Assembly: GCF_003111645.1 (NCBI RefSeq) | Contig: NZ_CP022187.1 | Span: 4,030,001 to 4,094,000, forward strand | From: Parazoarcus communis | Lineage (GTDB): Bacteria; Pseudomonadota; Gammaproteobacteria; Burkholderiales; Rhodocyclaceae | DNA length: 64,000 bases | Reading direction: 5' to 3' | Part shown: positions 55,045-63,974 of the stretch, in pieces | How the letters are laid out: every line of letters starts with the position of its first letter | How positions within the stretch are numbered: position 1 is the first letter of the stretch | Translations under genes and position numbers: made by a program | The notes under the pieces: generated by a model | Told to the model about the DNA's origin: nothing | Database searches by the model: none | What the model saw: only the letters and a program-made list of their open reading frames with translations

Positions 55045-56439
55045 TCAGTCGTTGCAGGCCATCAGGTCGGGGGAGAGACGCCATGCGGGTGTGGTCTGTA
55101 CCGCGAACCCGCAGCCGGTCTTGGCCCGCACTTCATCGAGTGTCACGCCCGGATGCAGTTCGGTCAGCGTCAGTCCGCCTGCCTGATTGACGAGGAAGAC
55201 GCACAGGTCGGTGATGATCATGTCCACCACGCCTTTTCCGGTCAGCGGCAGACTGCACTGGGGCAGGATCTTGGGCGAGCCGTCCCGCGCCGTGTGTTCC
55301 ATCAGCACGATCACTCGACCGACGCCGGAGACCAGGTCCATTGCGCCGCCGGGACCCTTGACCATCTTGCCCGGTACCATCCAGTTGGCCAGGTCGCCGT
55401 TTTCCGACACTTCGAGCCCGCCGAGAATGGAAAGGTCTACATGCCCGCCGCGAATCATCGCGAAGGAGTCTGCGCTGGAGAAGAAGCTGCTGCCCGGCAG
55501 GCTGGTGATGGTCTGCTTGCCGGCGTTGATCAGGTCGGGGTCCAGCGCCTCGGCGGTGGGAAAGGGGCCGATGCCGAGCAGGCCGTTCTCCGACTGCAGC
55601 GTCACCTGCATGCCGTCCGGGATGTAGTTGGCGACCAGGGTCGGGATGCCGATGCCGAGATTGACGTAGAAACCGTTACGCAACTCCTGGGCGGCACGCT
55701 GTGCCATGCGGTCGCGTACAGGGTCGTGCTTGCCGGGTGCGGCGGCGCCGGCCGTGGTGCGGAATTCGATGCGTTTCTGGTAGTCGCGCCCCTGGATGAT
55801 GCGGTCGACGTAGATGCCCGGAGTATGGATCTGGTCCGCATCCAGCTCCCCCGGTTCGACTAGTTCCTCGACCTCGGCGACGGTGATGCGACCGCAGGTG
55901 GCGATCATCGGATTGAAGTTACGGGCCGTTTTACGGAAAACCAGGTTGCCGGCGCGATCGCCCTTCCACGCCTTGACGATGGAGACGTCGGCCTGGATCG
56001 CGGGTTCGAGCACATATTCGCGTCCGTCGAAGGAACGTGTTTCCTTGTCCTTGGCGAGGAGCGTGCCGTACGCGGTGCGGGTGTAGAAGCCCGGGATGCC
56101 GGCGCCGCCTGCGCGCAGGCGTTCGGCCAGCGTGCCCTGGGGAACGAGTTCGAGTTCCAGTTCGCCGGCGAGCACCTGACGTTCGAACTCCTTGTTCTCG
56201 CCCACGTAGGACGCGACCACCTTCTTTACCTGGCGCGTCTTGAGCAGCGGCCCCATGCCGAAATCGTCGACGCCGGCATTGTTGCCGACAATGGTCAGTT
56301 CGCGGGTGCCGGCCTGCAGCACCGCGTCAATGAGATTCTCCGGTATGCCGCACAGGCCGAAGCCGCCCGACGCCAGGGTCATGCCATCGAACAGCAGTCC
56401 GTCGAGGGCTGCTGCGCCATCCGTGTACACCTTGTTCAT
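55045..56439 (-). CDS. Fused-subunit 3-oxoacid (succinyl-CoA:acetoacetate) CoA-transferase
   Basis: 464 residues, both SCOT-like subunits in one chain. The A part (about 1-225) begins [33 protein letters not shown], followed by a short linker ([13 protein letters not shown], about 232-245) and the B part from [26 protein letters not shown]. The catalytic Glu is in [11 protein letters not shown]. It moves CoA from succinyl-CoA to acetoacetate, the product of acetone carboxylase, giving acetoacetyl-CoA for a thiolase elsewhere. The ATG 56439 has GGGGAG upstream. It is separated from acxC by a strong terminator. Confidence 0.9.
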
Positions 56440-56473
56440 ATCTTTTCGACTCCCCTCAGATCCTGTCTCTGGC

Positions 56474-56503
56474 AAAAAAACGGGGCAGGCCGTGGCCTGC
56501 CCC
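56474..56503 (-). terminator. Intrinsic terminator between acxC and the CoA-transferase gene
   Basis: On the minus strand GGGGCAGGCC (56503-56494), a two-base loop and GGCCTGCCCC (56491-56482), then GTTTTTTTG. The stem is perfect over 10 bp. Only 34 bp remain to the CoA-transferase start, which leaves little room for a separate promoter. Confidence 0.88.
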
Positions 56504-56517
56504 GCGCGGAACAGCGC

Positions 56518-57024
56518 TCAGTCAGCGCGTTCCGGCACCGGCATGCCGATCCAGTCCTTGTAGAAGGACTCGATATCCGGCTCGAAGTCGTGGATCACCG
56601 GATACCAGGGGGTGGGCGCTTCGACGTCGTGCATCGTGCCGCAGGTCGGGCAGTAGTACTCGCGATAGACCTGCCACTGCGTGTCAGGCGCCATTAGCCT
56701 GGGGTACACCTCGGTCATGGCCTCTTCGGTGTCGCGCACGTAGATCGAGGCATGCATCTTCCAGTTCTCGCGGTAGTCGCAGAACTCGTGACCGCAATCA
56801 CACTTGATGAGCCACTTCTTGCTCTTTGCGGACTGCACGATGTACATGTGCGGGCCGAGCGGCAGGACGATGCGGTCCTTGAACGTGACCTTCTTCTGCA
56901 AGGCATCGACGTACTGCTTGAAGCGGCTGTTGTCCTTGGGCATGGACAGCATGCGGAAGGTGGTTTCCCAGTCCAGCGAGCCGTCGACCAGGTGCGAAAC
57001 CTGTTCATTCGTGTAGGTAGACAT
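56518..57024 (-). CDS. acxC: Acetone carboxylase gamma subunit
   Basis: 168 residues, the size of the Xanthobacter gamma subunit. Two Cys pairs, CDCGHEFC and CPTCG, can form a metal site; aromatic-rich C-terminus (WYPVIHDFEPDIESFYKDWIG). The gamma subunit is needed for the alpha2beta2gamma2 complex. ATG 57024 has AAGGAG upstream. It follows acxB by 39 bp. No homologues outside this enzyme family are evident from sequence. Confidence 0.94.
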   Translation of the reverse strand: MSTYTNEQVSHLVDGSLDWETTFRMLSMPKDNSRFKQYVDALQKKVTFKDRIVLPLGPHMYIVQSAKSKKWLIKCDCGHEFCDYRENWKMHASIYVRDTEEAMTEVYPRLMAPDTQWQVYREYYCPTCGTMHDVEAPTPWYPVIHDFEPDIESFYKDWIGMPVPERAD

Positions 57025-57063: not shown

Positions 57064-59388
57064 TCACTCTTCGACCTGGACAACGGTCGTGACGTCCGGC
57101 ATCAGTGAGAGGTCCATGCGATGCTTGGAGCCGTAGGTCGGCACATCGAGTTCGTCTTCCAGCAACTGCCAGTCGGCCGGAAGGGTCCAGAAGTCCTTGA
57201 ACTGGCGGGTGAACTTCTCCGACAGTGCAAAGCTGGTGGCGAACATGTGCTGCACCTGCACCGACGCATGCTTGTTGAGGATGCGTTCGCGCTCTTCCTT
57301 CATCCACTCGCGGGTCGGCAAGGCACGTGCAAGGCGTTCCTTGCGCATCTCGGCACGGCGCGCCTGGGTCGCGGCGGCATCGACCGTGAACACGCCCTTG
57401 GCATCCTGCGAGAACACCGCGCCATACACCTTCCGTGCGTACTCGGGGAGCAGGAACTTCTGGTTGAGGTCGCTCTCGATGGCCTTGGGTTCGCGATCGA
57501 TCGGATCGCCAAAGCCAGGGCCGCCGCGCAGGTAGTTGAGGTAAAGGTCGTGGTTGTCGTAGCAGTCCTCGGTGGTGACGCACTGCTTGTCGCGCTTGAC
57601 CACCGCGGTGGCATCAATGTGACGCTCGTAGTCCGGATTGCTCGGATCGATATCGCCACCCAGCGGCAGGGAGTCGCCGACGGTGATGCGCTGCTCGAGC
57701 CCGGTCTTGTGCGCTTCGAAACGGTAGCCGGTGGCCGAGGGGTAGCCGCCCATCATGCCCCAGTCACTGTTCATGTAGCCGTTGCCCATGAAGAACATCG
57801 TCCAGTCCTGGGCGTTCCACACCATGCGCAAGGTCTCGAAGCCGCAACCGCCGCGGTACTTGCCATAGCCACCGGAGTTGGCCTTGACGTTGCGTCCGAG
57901 ATAGAGCAATGGCTCGGCCATTTCCCAGATCTCGATGTCCCCCATGTCGCCTTCGGGGTTCCAGATGGCGGCGGCGTGGTTCAGGCCGTCCTTGATCGCG
58001 CAGGCACCGGTGCCGCAGGACGAGGCTTCGAAGCTGTTGACCGCGTGGATCTCGCCGTCCTGGTTGATGCCACCACCCTGCAGCCAGTTGGAGGTGTTGG
58101 CGTTGCCGGCATTGACCTCTTCCAGATAGCCGCGGCTGAAGTAGGACTGGCCGAGGCCGCGCCACAGTGCCGCCCAGCCCGAGACCAGGAAGTGCCAGGC
58201 GTAGGCGTGCCCGGTGCGGCGGTCGTCCGGGTTGCACCAGGTGCCCTTGGGCAGGTGGAACTCGGTGGCGTAGTAGGCGCCGTCATTGATGCGCTGGGTC
58301 GGTACCAGGGTCTGACACATCATCACCCAGATGCCCGAGGTGAAGGCCACCTGATGGGCATTGAAGGTGTGCCAGCCCCAGCGGCTCGCACCCTCGAAGT
58401 CGAGGCGCCACTTGCCGTCCGGCTTGATCGTCATCTCGCAGGGCGAGTGCATGATCGAGTCGAGCTTGGCGAAGGCGTTGGAGACCTGAACGTCGTCGTG
58501 GTTGAAAGGCACATCGACAAAGGACACCTTGCGATACTTGCCCGGCAGCGTCATCGCCTTGACGCGGCTCATCAGCCCGCGGCGTCCCTCCTCGATGACC
58601 TCCTGCGAGAACTTCTCGTAGGCGTCGAGCCCGTCAGCACGGATCACGTCCTCGACCAGTTCGCGGATCATGTGGCAACCGGCGATTCGGGTCTTTTCGT
58701 CGAGGATCCAGTACTTGGGCGTGCGCACCGAACGCTGCGATTCATGCAGCCAGTCGCGCAGCGGCTCGTCATTCACGCCGGTCTTGCGGCAGGTGATCAT
58801 GTAGCCGTCACCGAAGCGCTGGGTCTGGCCGGTGGACATCGAGCCCGGTGTGACCGCGCCGGTGTCGATGACGTGGGTGACGCCGCCCACCCAGCCGATC
58901 AGCTTGCCTTCCCAGAAGATCGGCACGATGGTGGCGATGTCGCAGGGGTGCACGTTGCCGATGGCGCAGTCGTTGGTGGTGAACATGTCGCCGGGGTTGA
59001 TCGTCGGGTTGGCTTCCCAGTTGTTCTCGATCATGTACTTGATCGCGGCGCCCATCGTCCCGACGTGGATGATGATGCCGGTCGAGGTCAGGATGCAGTC
59101 GCCGGCGGCGTTGTACAGCGTGAAGCAGAGCTCGCCTTCCTGCTCGACGATCGGGCTGGCAGCGATCTTCTTGGCGGTTTCACGGGCGTGGACCAGGCCT
59201 CCGCGCAGCTTGGAGAACAGCTTCTCGTAGCCGATCGGGTCGCTGTCGCGCAGCTCGAGCTTCTCCAGACCGTCGTAGTAGCCGGTCTCCTTGGTGCGGG
59301 CAATGATTGCGTCGCGGTTCTGCTTGAGCGTCAGGCCGCTCTTGAGCAGGTTGCCGACACCGATTTCCTTGTGGCTCATCATATTCAT
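57064..59388 (-). CDS. acxB: Acetone carboxylase alpha subunit (HyuB-like)
   Basis: 774 residues, related to the B subunit of N-methylhydantoinases. It binds Mn and carries out carboxylation of the acetone enolate, using phosphoryl species made by the beta subunit. Seen: RSVRTPKYWILDE, GDMFTTNDCAIGNVHPCDI, TGTGACAIKDGLNHAAAIWNPEGDM-type patterns and the YGKYRGGCGFETL region. ATG 59388 with AAGGAGACAG upstream. It is 11 bp downstream of acxA; the order A-B-C equals that of Xanthobacter and Aromatoleum. Confidence 0.95.
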   Translation of the reverse strand: MNMMSHKEIGVGNLLKSGLTLKQNRDAIIARTKETGYYDGLEKLELRDSDPIGYEKLFSKLRGGLVHARETAKKIAASPIVEQEGELCFTLYNAAGDCILTSTGIIIHVGTMGAAIKYMIENNWEANPTINPGDMFTTNDCAIGNVHPCDIATIVPIFWEGKLIGWVGGVTHVIDTGAVTPGSMSTGQTQRFGDGYMITCRKTGVNDEPLRDWLHESQRSVRTPKYWILDEKTRIAGCHMIRELVEDVIRADGLDAYEKFSQEVIEEGRRGLMSRVKAMTLPGKYRKVSFVDVPFNHDDVQVSNAFAKLDSIMHSPCEMTIKPDGKWRLDFEGASRWGWHTFNAHQVAFTSGIWVMMCQTLVPTQRINDGAYYATEFHLPKGTWCNPDDRRTGHAYAWHFLVSGWAALWRGLGQSYFSRGYLEEVNAGNANTSNWLQGGGINQDGEIHAVNSFEASSCGTGACAIKDGLNHAAAIWNPEGDMGDIEIWEMAEPLLYLGRNVKANSGGYGKYRGGCGFETLRMVWNAQDWTMFFMGNGYMNSDWGMMGGYPSATGYRFEAHKTGLEQRITVGDSLPLGGDIDPSNPDYERHIDATAVVKRDKQCVTTEDCYDNHDLYLNYLRGGPGFGDPIDREPKAIESDLNQKFLLPEYARKVYGAVFSQDAKGVFTVDAAATQARRAEMRKERLARALPTREWMKEERERILNKHASVQVQHMFATSFALSEKFTRQFKDFWTLPADWQLLEDELDVPTYGSKHRMDLSLMPDVTTVVQVEE

Positions 59389-59399
59389 GATCTGTCTCC

Positions 59400-61547
59400 T
59401 TACTTGACTTCTTTGAGGTGGAACAGGCGATGCTTGTCGATCGTCGTTTCGAAGCCGTCGGGCACGACGAAGGTCGTGGCATCGGATTCGATGATGGCGG
59501 GGCCCATGATGTAGTTACCGGCCTTGAGCGACTCCATCTTCCACAGTGATGCTTCGACCCACTTCTTGTGGCGGTAGAAGGGGCGGGTGCCGAGATAGGC
59601 CTCCTGCGGCGGAGTGGGGCCGGCATCCGGGTCTTCCGGGAGCACCGGCTTCTGCGTCATGACCATGCCGCGCAGAATCGCGCCGGTGATGGAGAAGCCC
59701 AGCTCAGGCGAGCGCGCGGAGTTGGCATAGACGCGACCGTAGGTGGTCTCGAAGGTCTCGATGATCTTGTTCCAGTCATCGGCGGTGGATGCGCTGGTGA
59801 CCGGGGACACGATCTCGAGGTCGTTGAGCTGGCCCATGTACTGCATCTTGTAGCCGGGGATCAGCATCACGTCTTCGGCCTTGTAGCCGTTGATCACGAA
59901 CTCCTCGATGACCTTGACCGCCAGTTCGCCCCAGGCGTCCTGCAGGCTGGCGCAGGCTGCAGCCTTCTCTGCATCGCTGGCGAACTGCGCCACGCCGAGG
60001 TCCACCGATTTGTCGTAGCGGTACTCGAAGTCGGCGCAGGCGCAGCCGAAGGCCGAGAAGCCGGCGGCCCAGGCGGGCACCACGACATCCTTGAATCCGA
60101 CGCCCTCGGTATAGCCGTAGGTATGCACCGGGCCGGCACCGCCGTAGGAGAAGCAGGTGAACTCGGCCGGGTTGTAGCCCTTGGCGCTGATGTTGGCGCG
60201 CAGGTACTCGGACAGGGTGAGGTCGAGCAGTTCGATGACGCCGGCTGCCGCATCTTCGACCGACAGGCCGAGCGGGTCGGCAATCTGCGCCTTGATGTGG
60301 TCGCGGGCACGCTGCACGTCGAGCTTGATCGCACCGCCGAGGAAGTTCTCGGGGTTGAGGTAGCCGAGTACGACGTGGCAGTCGGACACCGATACCGTGT
60401 CCAGCCCGCTGTCGGCCCAGCAGGTGCCGACGCGATAGCCGGCGCTGTCGGGCCCGAGCTTGATCGATTTGCTGTACGGGTCGAGACGCACGAAGCTGCC
60501 GGCGCCGGCACCGACCGAGTCCATGGCGACCAGCGGCAGCGACAGCACCAGGCGTGCCATGTCGGGATCGGACTTGATGGCGAAATTGCCCTTGGTGATC
60601 AGCGCCACGTCGAAGCTTGTGCCGCCGATGTCGGAGCAGGCGATGTTCTCGTCACCGAGGTACTCGCCCAGCAGCTTGGAGCCGATGACGCCGCCGATCG
60701 GGCCGGACACGATGGTGCGGGCGAGCTCCTTGGCCTTCCAGCTGATCGTGCCGCCGTGTGTGGCCATCACCCGCAGGTCGAACTTGGCGCCATGCTTCTT
60801 GAAGCGGTCGCTCACCTTCTTCAGCGTCTGACGCGAAGGTTCGGCGCCGTAAGCTTCCAGAATGGTGGTGTTCATGCGGTGGCTTTCCTTGCGCGACGGG
60901 TAGTAATCCACCGAGGCGAAAACCGGAATGTCCACCTTGAGCTTCTGCAACTCATCCTTGGCAAGGTCGCGTGCGCGCTGTTCGCTGATCTCGTTCTTGT
61001 GCGACTGCAGCAGACAGATCACGATGGCCTGAGAGCCGGCCTCAACCAGTTCGCGTGTGGCCTGACGGACCTCTTCCTCACGCAGCGGAATGACGATCTT
61101 GCCCTGCACGTCGGTGCGCTCGGTGACGCCGCGGGTGCGCGACACGGGTACCAGCGGCTCGTCGTAGCGGTGGGTGTTGAGGTGGATGCGGTCTTCCAGC
61201 GCGTAGCCGAGGTAGCTTTGCAGGGCCCGGCCCATGGAGTGGATCTGTTCAAAGCCGCGATTGCAGATCAGGCCGACGTCGAGCCCCTTGCGCATCAGGA
61301 TGCGGTTGAGCATCGCGGTGCCGGAGTAGACGCAGGTCGCAAGCTCCGGGTAGACGTCGTCCACCGTGCGGTTCCAGTGGGCCAGGGCGTCTTCGGACGA
61401 GTTGAAGATGGCCAGCGATTCGTCCCCCGGGTTGCTCTGGGCCTTGCCCACCACAAAGCGCCCATCGGCGCGAACGAAGAAGGTGTCAGTCATCGTGCCA
61501 CCGGCATCGATGCCCATCACCTGTACGGTTGAGTCCTGAACTTGCAT
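59400..61547 (-). CDS. acxA: Acetone carboxylase beta subunit (HyuA-like ATPase)
   Basis: 715 residues, near the family's 717. Begins MQVQDSTVQVMGIDAGGTMTDTFF, whose GIDAGGTMTDT forms the phosphate-binding loop of the hydantoinase-A/actin-like fold; later GGTSFDVALI and FSYGGAGPVHTYG are seen. It uses ATP (to AMP) to activate acetone and bicarbonate. ATG 61547 has AGGAGGC upstream; the frame is open upstream but not family-like. First gene of acxABC, controlled by the sigma-54 promoter at 61669-61684. Confidence 0.95.
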   Translation of the reverse strand: MQVQDSTVQVMGIDAGGTMTDTFFVRADGRFVVGKAQSNPGDESLAIFNSSEDALAHWNRTVDDVYPELATCVYSGTAMLNRILMRKGLDVGLICNRGFEQIHSMGRALQSYLGYALEDRIHLNTHRYDEPLVPVSRTRGVTERTDVQGKIVIPLREEEVRQATRELVEAGSQAIVICLLQSHKNEISEQRARDLAKDELQKLKVDIPVFASVDYYPSRKESHRMNTTILEAYGAEPSRQTLKKVSDRFKKHGAKFDLRVMATHGGTISWKAKELARTIVSGPIGGVIGSKLLGEYLGDENIACSDIGGTSFDVALITKGNFAIKSDPDMARLVLSLPLVAMDSVGAGAGSFVRLDPYSKSIKLGPDSAGYRVGTCWADSGLDTVSVSDCHVVLGYLNPENFLGGAIKLDVQRARDHIKAQIADPLGLSVEDAAAGVIELLDLTLSEYLRANISAKGYNPAEFTCFSYGGAGPVHTYGYTEGVGFKDVVVPAWAAGFSAFGCACADFEYRYDKSVDLGVAQFASDAEKAAACASLQDAWGELAVKVIEEFVINGYKAEDVMLIPGYKMQYMGQLNDLEIVSPVTSASTADDWNKIIETFETTYGRVYANSARSPELGFSITGAILRGMVMTQKPVLPEDPDAGPTPPQEAYLGTRPFYRHKKWVEASLWKMESLKAGNYIMGPAIIESDATTFVVPDGFETTIDKHRLFHLKEVK

Positions 61548-61668
61548 GTCGCCTCCTGTCATTGATGTGTCGGGCTTTGAGACTTTTGCCGACGGCCCTC
61601 GCCTGGTGATTCGATTCGCCGGCAAGGCATCTCAGTCGCCCCCGGGGTGTTCCCCTGTGCCAGACATC

Positions 61669-61684
61669 GCAAGGGCTGTTCCAG
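61669..61684 (-). promoter_or_regulatory. Sigma-54 (-24/-12) promoter of acxABC
   Basis: On the minus strand CTGGAACAGCCCTTGC, which matches TGGCAC-N5-TTGC except at two less critical positions; GG and GC are at the exact 10-bp spacing. The leader to the acxA ATG is about 110 bases. It faces the acx operon and is near an AAA+ activator, both needed for such a promoter. Confidence 0.8.
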
Positions 61685-61725
61685 GTGCGCACGGAAATGA
61701 CATCGAGGATGTCAAAAGAAAAACA

Positions 61726-61738
61726 AATCAATGGGTTA
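61726..61738. promoter_or_regulatory. IHF site between enhancer and sigma-54 promoter
   Basis: AATCAATGGGTTA is a full match to WATCAA-N4-TTR. It is in an AT-rich island (61713-61750) and lies between the inverted repeats and the -24/-12 element, where DNA bending by IHF brings activator and polymerase together. Confidence 0.75.
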
Positions 61739-61785
61739 ATTATTTTTATGGCGAACGGGGCGGGGTGGCGAGGTGCGTGCTGGAG

Positions 61786-61831
61786 TGTCCGGATTCCGGA
61801 CAGTCGGACACTTCTGTCCAGACTTCAGACA
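61786..61831. promoter_or_regulatory. Enhancer (upstream activating sequence) for AcxR
   Basis: TGTCCGG-N3-CCGGACA (61786-61802) and GGACA-N4-TGTCC (61806-61819), followed by a partial copy with CTGTC and GACAG. The paired half-sites TGTCC/GGACA are about 105-145 bp upstream of the sigma-54 element, the usual enhancer distance. AcxR is the logical binder since it is divergent here. Confidence 0.7.
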
Positions 61832-61964
61832 GTTCGGCGTACGCCATGTTGCGGTGCACAGATTATTGATTACATTGGGTATTTTCTTGACGTGCGGATG
61901 TGGAGGTATTAGTTTTAACCAGACTCGAATCCCGCATCACCGATGGGGCCATTACACGCTGAAT

Positions 61965-63974
61965 ATGCATTCATCACATCCCATGATTCCACGTGCAGGT
62001 AATGAAAACGCAGTAGCCGACTCCTGGGAGCGCTTCGTGCATGACGATCCGCTCGTGAATGCACCTGTGCGCGATGTCGTTCTTGAATCATGGCGACGCT
62101 GCCGGTCCGAAGCGGTCGATCCCTCGCGGGGTCGCGCTCCGACGGCAGACGAGGCATGGGTCAGGTCGCTGCGGGAGAAGCACCATTCGCTGCACGAGGC
62201 CGCACGTCCGGTGCTGGATGCGATGAAGGAGGTCCTGCACGAGTCCGGCAGCATCATCATGCTGACCGACCCCAGCGGCACCATCATCGACCTTCATGGC
62301 GATGCCCGGGCGCGCAATGCGGGTGAGGCGGTCAATCTGGCGCAGGGCGGGCGCTGGGTTGAGAACGCGATGGGCACCAACGCCATCGGCACGGCGATTG
62401 CTGCGCTGAAGCCCGTGCAGATCTACGCCAGCGAACACTATTGTCTCGACGTCAAACGCTGGACTTGCGCGGCTGCACCCATACTCGACCTGACCGGCAC
62501 GGCCTTGCTGGGCGTGGTCGACGTGTCGGGCGTGAAGGAGACCTTTCACGGGCACAGCCTCGGCCTGGTCATGGCCGCTGCAAAGCAGATCGAGGCCGTC
62601 CTTGCGAGCCGTGAACGCGATCTCCACGCCCGACTGCTTGAACATTCGATGGACAGCTTTGTGCGCTTTGGCGGCGACTGCGTCATGGTGTTCGATCGTC
62701 GCGGAAGGCTGCTCAAGAGCAATGGGCGGCAGCATCTCGCACGCGAGCAACACGGTGTGCAGTTGCCGGCCATCACCGGGGGCCAGGTCGATGCGCTCGA
62801 CCTCGATCATTCGCCCGACGAGCGCGCAGTCCGCATGCCGCTCTGGCTGAACAGGGAGTGGCTGCAAGTCGTTCGCACGCCGAGCGGCGAACTGGGAACC
62901 ATGCTCGTCATCCCGCTGGGTCATGGTTCGGGTGGGCAGACACCGGGTGTGGCTGCGCGCGAGGTGCGCGAACCGGCTTCATGTCCAAAGGCCGATCCAT
63001 TTGCCGAAATCATCGGCGCATCGGATGCCCTGGTGGCCGCGAAGGCCCGCGCGCAACGTCTGGCCCCCCTGGATCTGCCGGTCATGCTGCTCGGCGAAAC
63101 CGGGGTCGGCAAGGAGGTGTTTGCGCGGGCGATCCACAAGGCGGGCGTGAAGCCAGACGCACCGTTTGTTGCGGTGAACTGTGGTGCCCTGACCCGCGAA
63201 CTGCTCGCCAGTGAGTTGTTCGGCTACGTCGAGGGCGCTTTCACCGGTGCGCGCCGCAATGGCTTGCCGGGAAAGTTCGAGCTCGCCGATGGCGGGGTGC
63301 TGTTTCTCGATGAGATTGGTGAGATGCCGCTCGACATGCAGCCCCATCTGCTGCGCGTCCTGCAGGATGGCGTCGTGGTACGTCTTGGCGACACGCGCGA
63401 GCGTCGGGTGAGCGTCCGGATCATTGCGGCCACCAACCGAGATCTGCGTGGTGAGGTTGCGGCGGGACGCTTCCGTGAAGACCTGTTTCATCGCCTGTGC
63501 GTGACAAGCATTCGCCTTCCCGCGTTGCGCGAGCGGCCGGATGACATCAGCCGCATCGTTGATCATCTGAACGCGCGTCTGGCACAGAAGTATGCCTGTC
63601 CGGCCAAGCGCATCACGCCGGAGGTTGTCGACGCCTTGTTGCATTACCCCTGGCCCGGGAACGTCCGCGAGTTGCAGAACGTGTTCGAGGGGCTTTTCGC
63701 GCTGAGTGACAACGGCCTGATCGACCGCAGCGTATTGCCTGAAGAGCTGGTATCGGCCGGACGGAAAGCAGCATCGCCGGCGGCCTTGCCTGCTGCGGGG
63801 CTGAATGGCGCTCGCCTGGAGGATCTGGAGCAACAGGCGATTCTTTCGGCTGTGTCCAATGCCAAGGGGAACATCTCCCAGGCCGCAAGGGCGCTCGGTA
63901 TTTCGCGCAGTACCCTGTACGTCAAACTGGGCATATTGCGCGGGCGAGCCGACGGGCTGGCGCATCGGCACTGA
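61965..63974 (+). CDS. acxR: AcxR, sigma-54-dependent activator of acetone carboxylase genes (AcoR-like)
   Basis: 669 residues from ATG 61965. AcoR-like N-terminal sensing region (about 1-320; [34 protein letters not shown] resemble GAF-type domains), an AAA+ domain with Walker A GETGVGKE (377-384), GAFTGA (424-429, needed for contact with sigma-54) and Walker [10 protein letters not shown], and a C-terminal Fis-type HTH ([19 protein letters not shown]). All activation residues are intact. The start lacks a clear ribosome site; ATG 61983 is an alternative. It should sense acetone or a related ketone and switch on acxA-C. Confidence 0.92.

Follow-up and report, generated by a model that had tools for sequence, protein, structure and literature searches.

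The 417-bp spacer between acxA and the divergent acxR gene of Parazoarcus communis (positions 61548-61964 of the 64,000-nt stretch analyzed here, referred to as the window) is very probably the region from which the acetone carboxylase operon is controlled: AcxR would act there from two operators, aided by an IHF bend, on a sigma-54 promoter. In the mechanism that we propose, AcxR would be produced from its own weak sigma-70-type promoter and its dimers would bind two 17-bp operators (61786-61802 and 61815-61831). IHF would bend the DNA at 61726-61738, about midway between operators and promoter, and the AAA+ ring of inducer-bound AcxR would contact and open RNA polymerase-sigma-54 at 61683-61668. 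The inducer would be acetone or else a ketone or alcohol related to it, and transcription of acxABC would begin near position 61657, placing a short hairpin first in the mRNA. The elements themselves, their spacing and their conservation are direct observations.

The acxABC genes (minus strand) and acxR (plus strand) lie at the end of the window. The first gene, acxA (59400-61547), codes for a Hydantoinase_A-type acetone carboxylase subunit with Hydant_A_N, Hydantoinase_A and Hydant_A_C domains, and is followed on the same strand by the genes of a second subunit (57064-59388; Hydantoinase_B, E=6e-106) and of the gamma subunit (56518-57024; Acetone_carb_G, E=3e-57). Three subunit genes in order and a divergent acxR thus define the acxABC/AcxR type of operon. 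The ATG of acxA at 61547 (minus strand), with GGAGG upstream, is kept in most beta-proteobacterial relatives. For acxR (61965-63974, plus strand), the GTG at 61773 taken from the list of open reading frames was dropped in favor of the ATG at 61965, where the alignment of relatives begins. Its product has the make-up of a bacterial enhancer-binding protein, namely an AAA+ domain with a GAFTGA loop, a Fis-type helix-turn-helix and a sensory domain, here a GAF domain that replaces the receiver domain. The genome contains a single copy of rpoN, along with ihfA and ihfB, both scoring above curated cut-offs. Acetone carboxylase is produced in bulk by acetone-grown cells. Directly downstream of acxABC lies a fused two-part CoA-transferase-like open reading frame (55045-56475, minus strand); by eye it belongs to the succinyl-CoA:3-ketoacid type, and as such it would consume the acetoacetate made by acetone carboxylase.

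Relatives of AcxA were taken from same-family genomes and from GTDB species genomes, yielding 91 acx loci including the window, some of which represent one genome present in both collections. Forty-one of these loci have a divergent AcxR with more than 50% identity (the AcxR-divergent set), and clustering at 60% identity gave 22 clusters on which the geometry of AcxR-type spacers was measured. We observed the promoter, the IHF site and the operator pair with a fixed geometry across these 22 clusters, in Rhodocyclales, Burkholderiales and Neisseriales. A search of the plasmid collection returned no match similar to the spacer. The recurrence in these clusters, together with the presence of rpoN, ihfA and ihfB and the domains of AcxR, bears out the proposal of an earlier note on this DNA that the spacer forms a coherent sigma-54 switch with a GAFTGA activator.

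The proximal putative AcxR operator, TGTCCGGATTCCGGACA at 61786-61802, is a perfect dyad centered 125 bp above the −12 C of the promoter. It corresponds to the TGTCCGG-N3-CCGGACA repeat that the earlier note had described, and it occurs only once in the 4.57-Mb genome. The distal putative operator, TGTCCAGACTTCAGACA at 61815-61831, matches 11 of 14 positions and is centered 29 bp past the proximal one, 154 bp above the −12 position. When the spacer was dinucleotide-shuffled 5000 times, neither the perfect dyad nor an equally good operator pair appeared (0/5000 for each). All 41 AcxR-divergent loci carry two 17-bp YGTCCGG-N3-CCGGACR sites spaced 28-31 bp apart, mostly 29; the repeats, whose absence from related spacers had been named beforehand as grounds for abandoning the proposal, are thus conserved in the 22 clusters. 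Across these clusters, the proximal operator has its center 123.4 ± 2.8 bp above the −12 C, whereas the ATG follows that base after 64.5 ± 25.5 bp (range 49 to 141). Two loci (L052 and L053) contain extra DNA between the operators and acxR, with the distance from operators to sigma-54 promoter left unchanged. The constancy of this distance despite a variable distance to the ATG and despite the extra DNA indicates that operators and promoter behave as one unit, and dyads located 125 and 154 bp upstream of a promoter are the arrangement of upstream activating sequences expected of an enhancer-binding protein. Two of the observations that count against the preferred explanation concern the operators: there are only two full operators for the three dimers of an activator hexamer, and the distal operator of the window is degenerate. 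The third AcxR dimer may bind a half-site located in the 12-bp linker between the operators, or nothing.

The operator pair follows the regulator. Every one of the 41 AcxR-divergent loci reaches a pair score of at least 21/28, as do two further loci, L061 and L073, whereas none of the remaining 48 exceeds 20. In L073 the AcxR gene is located 1.8 kb away, past the cut-off for the AcxR-divergent set. L061 is a second acx copy of Cupriavidus necator A5-1 that has no local acxR; AcxR is encoded at the second locus of this strain, L100, and both loci carry the same pair of operator sequences, which is what action of AcxR in trans would predict. This strain offers a natural test of such action. A regulon outside acx was sought in the genome of the window and none was found, the near-match operators that were checked being inside long open frames. 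The pattern TGTCCNNNNNNNCCGGACA allowing mismatches, whose spacing makes it an ill-suited probe, gave no matches.

The promoter reported in the earlier note, CTGGAACAGCCCTTGC, is indeed found on the minus strand at 61684-61669 with exact GG-N10-GC spacing. We delimit the −24/−12 element as TGGAACAGCCCTTGCG (61683-61668, minus strand), with the −12 C at 61669. It matches 9 of the 12 consensus positions (TGGCACG-N4-TTGCW), the remaining 90 loci matching 8 to 12, and a GG-N10-GC site with at least 8/12 positions is located no more than 160 nt from the acxA start in 91 of 91 acx loci. Taken by itself the score is within chance, since 334 of the 5000 shuffled spacers (6.7%) reach it. Moreover, the −24 box of the window reads TGGAAC and misses the usual C of TGGCAC, an imperfection that may make this promoter weak. 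It is credible nevertheless because it is conserved across relatives and locked to the operators. The predicted transcription start of acxA is position 61657 (minus strand), 12 nt downstream of the −12 C, which would leave a leader of 110 nt. Transcription of acxABC from this sigma-54 promoter would entail a dependence on rpoN.

An IHF site, AATCAATGGGTTA at 61726-61738 (plus strand), is found between operators and promoter, centered 63 bp above the −12 C; it is the perfect consensus site noticed earlier. It is the sole perfect match to WATCAANNNNTTR in the 64-kb window, which is weak evidence alone given that 0.31 are expected and that 27 of 100 shuffles contain at least one. Most AcxR loci, however, contain a match of at least 8/9 to WATCAANNNNTTR between the proximal operator and the promoter, for an expectation of 5% anywhere in the interval. 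These matches usually have one orientation and are mostly located 59-63 bp (about 62) above the −12 C, or 51 bp above it in two Zoogloea with a shorter gap. The consensus between upstream activating sequences and promoter, at a conserved place, is characteristic of an IHF-assisted sigma-54 promoter, even though some relatives, among them L044, L049, L108 and L109, have no good consensus; in these, bending may be dispensable or independent of IHF. A second IHF-like match, AATCAATAATCTG (61859-61871, minus strand; 8/9), is conserved near acxR in Rhodocyclales-type spacers. We excluded it as independent evidence because it overlaps a PhaR-like element described below.

Several other interpretations of the spacer were considered. 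The earlier note read two unlike operators, TGTCCGG-N3-CCGGACA and an inside-out GGACA-N4-TGTCC, and the latter does exist as GGACACTTCTGTCC at 61806-61819; it also recurs in L003-L005, where the N4 letters differ or a single base is changed. We consider this reading unlikely, as in the other clusters the second site repeats the orientation and register of the first 28-31 bp away, and the in-register sites of L004 are both 14/14. The half-sites had thus been paired inside out, one half of the distal operator being joined to a half-site of the linker, and the second operator is better taken to be the distal site given above. Similarly, the TGTCC/GGACA half-site suggested for AcxR binding, in two unlike arrangements, gives way to the unit YGTCCGG-N3-CCGGACR, present twice. 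The inside-out element is perhaps an extra half-site in the linker, similar to one found in the nearest relatives L003-L005, and by conjecture it may serve a further dimer.

The dyads might instead serve a different DNA-binding protein, such as a repressor of acxR or acxA, with AcxR binding elsewhere. This would be compatible with their position between two divergent genes and with the putative nature of AcxR binding. Yet the operator pair tracks the presence of AcxR across the 91 loci and keeps its distance to the sigma-54 promoter even where extra DNA precedes acxR, which makes such a protein quite improbable. The idea that acxABC is mainly transcribed from a sigma-70-type promoter and that the −24/−12 match is fortuitous draws on the frequency of equally good matches in shuffled spacers and on the imperfect −24 box. 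It is very hard to reconcile with a −24/−12 site in every locus, with an operator geometry locked to that site and with a minimum of RNA folding that falls at the start predicted from it, and we regard it as highly improbable. AcxR acting from the operator pair on the sigma-54 promoter remains the interpretation that we retain.

The folding minimum reflects a short hairpin located at the predicted mRNA start, twelve nt below the −12 C, in most acx loci. In the window, this predicted 5′-terminal hairpin is GGGG-AACA-CCCC (61644-61655, minus strand; +3 to +14), while much of the AcxR group has GTGGG-N4-CCCAC. Still other stems are found in Aromatoleum, Methyloversatilis, L012, L046, L096 and others, the position being kept and the sequence being specific to each clade. 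When 20-nt pieces were scanned from −30 to +20 in 32 clusters, the mean folding Z was lowest at +1 and +2 (−0.97 and −1.16, respectively); none of 20000 offset permutations reached the value at +1, and the profile was alike with 22-nt pieces. As a small control, twelve other sigma-54 consensus sites of the genome gave a mean Z of −0.22. Covariation within the AcxR group is modest: in the window and L004, one U-A pair has become G-C through changes on both sides. A fold minimum at +1/+2 is what is expected of a 5′-end hairpin under selection for pairing. The hairpin probably protects the 5′ end and, by analogy with ompA and papA, may stabilize the mRNA, the alternative being a dyad acting at the DNA level at the start site. 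Stabilizing 5′-terminal stem-loops are described for these two mRNAs (Emory, Bouvet and Belasco, as listed in PMC3997798). They resemble the acx hairpin in being short and in beginning within a few nt of the 5′ end, and differ from it in that the acx hairpin is a prediction, occurs in acetone carboxylase mRNAs and has clade-specific stems.

On the acxR side of the spacer, a predicted sigma-70-like promoter (TTGACG-N17-TAGTTT; 61887-61915, plus strand) has a weak −10 and a −35 that is conserved in relatives as GTCAA (TTGAC on the acxR strand). A conserved PhaR/PhbF-like element, TGTTGCGGTGCACAG at 61847-61861, is located upstream of it. On the acxR strand, the corresponding 15-mer, TGYTGCNNNGCACAA, is found at a near-constant 37-39 bp from GTCAA in most Rhodocyclales-type spacers as well as in L052, L053, L082 and L086. 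Since it is displaced from the operators jointly with acxR in L052 and L053, we consider it part of the acxR promoter. The element has one mismatch to the PhbF/PhaR consensus TG-N-TGC-N3-GCAA (PMC3206438): it shares with the Herbaspirillum seropedicae sites the TGC-N3-GCA core preceded by TG-N, but has GCAC instead of GCAA, and it precedes a regulator of acetone use instead of a known PHB gene. The genome codes for a PhaR homologue, and the motif is found upstream of two of its four phasin genes as well as at unrelated genes. A regulon confined to PHB is not supported, as the neighbors include threonyl-tRNA synthetase-like and acetate kinase-like genes, named by eye from their translations. 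That PhaR controls acxR is no more than a lead. The earlier note did not mention the PhaR-like element, the acxR promoter or the 5′ hairpin. We tentatively suggest, with somewhat less than even confidence, that acx mRNAs under any sigma-54 activator begin with a hairpin at about +1 to +16 whose stem differs between clades and which serves as a 5′-end stability element of the acx switch, and that a PhaR-type site links acxR to PHB storage.

The type of switch, with AcxR and a sigma-54 promoter in the spacer, is already known from Cupriavidus. The account of C. metallidurans CH34 given in PMC2864759 describes a divergent acxR with a GAFTGA motif and an acxRA spacer that contains the sigma-54 promoter TGGCATGNNNNTTGC, mentions induction by acetone and 2-propanol from a personal communication, and likens acxRABC to that of Xanthobacter autotrophicus Py2 (citing Sluis et al. 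2002). The window shares with that system the divergent acxR with GAFTGA, the sigma-54 promoter in the spacer and the acetone carboxylase operon. In contrast, the passages of PMC2864759 on this locus give no operator sequence, IHF site, spacing or mRNA hairpin; the −24 box there is TGGCAT compared to TGGAAC in the window, and the leader predicted for the window, about 110 nt, exceeds those of the Cupriavidus loci in the comparison. The BmoR-PBMO system of Thauera butanivorans (PMC8899819) likewise combines a sigma-54 activator with a remote inverted-repeat upstream activating sequence, BmoR being alcohol-sensing and looping being attributed to IHF. Its activating sequence is reported to be 193 bp from the −24/−12 element, compared to 125 and 154 bp in the window. 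The same source states that nothing in native PBMO matches the E. coli IHF consensus, unlike the window, and deletion of the PBMO hairpin did not abolish activity. The AcxR operator, its geometry, the IHF site and the leader hairpin were not found in the openly accessible papers searched, a scope outside of which the primary Xanthobacter paper falls. The operator code, the geometry and the 5′ hairpin thus appear to be new, provisionally so for the operator.

These findings turn a loosely described acetone-responsive switch into a defined operator, an exact geometry and testable parts, which could help in finding acx regulons and in the design of biosensors for ketones. Should the 5′ hairpin prove real, mRNA stability would become a conserved layer of control for acetone carboxylase. 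Coevolution of operator and regulator also becomes readable, as TGTCCGG goes with the recognition helix ISRSTLY and CGTCCG with IAKSTLY: loci with the other type of regulator have the latter helix, and many of them contain CGTCCG-type dyads. Dyads of this type are located upstream of acxA, in loci devoid of AcxR, in L007, L034, L036, L043, L055, L081, L089 and L095. Where a regulator was seen in such loci, it has an IAKSTLY-type helix and sits elsewhere in the locus.
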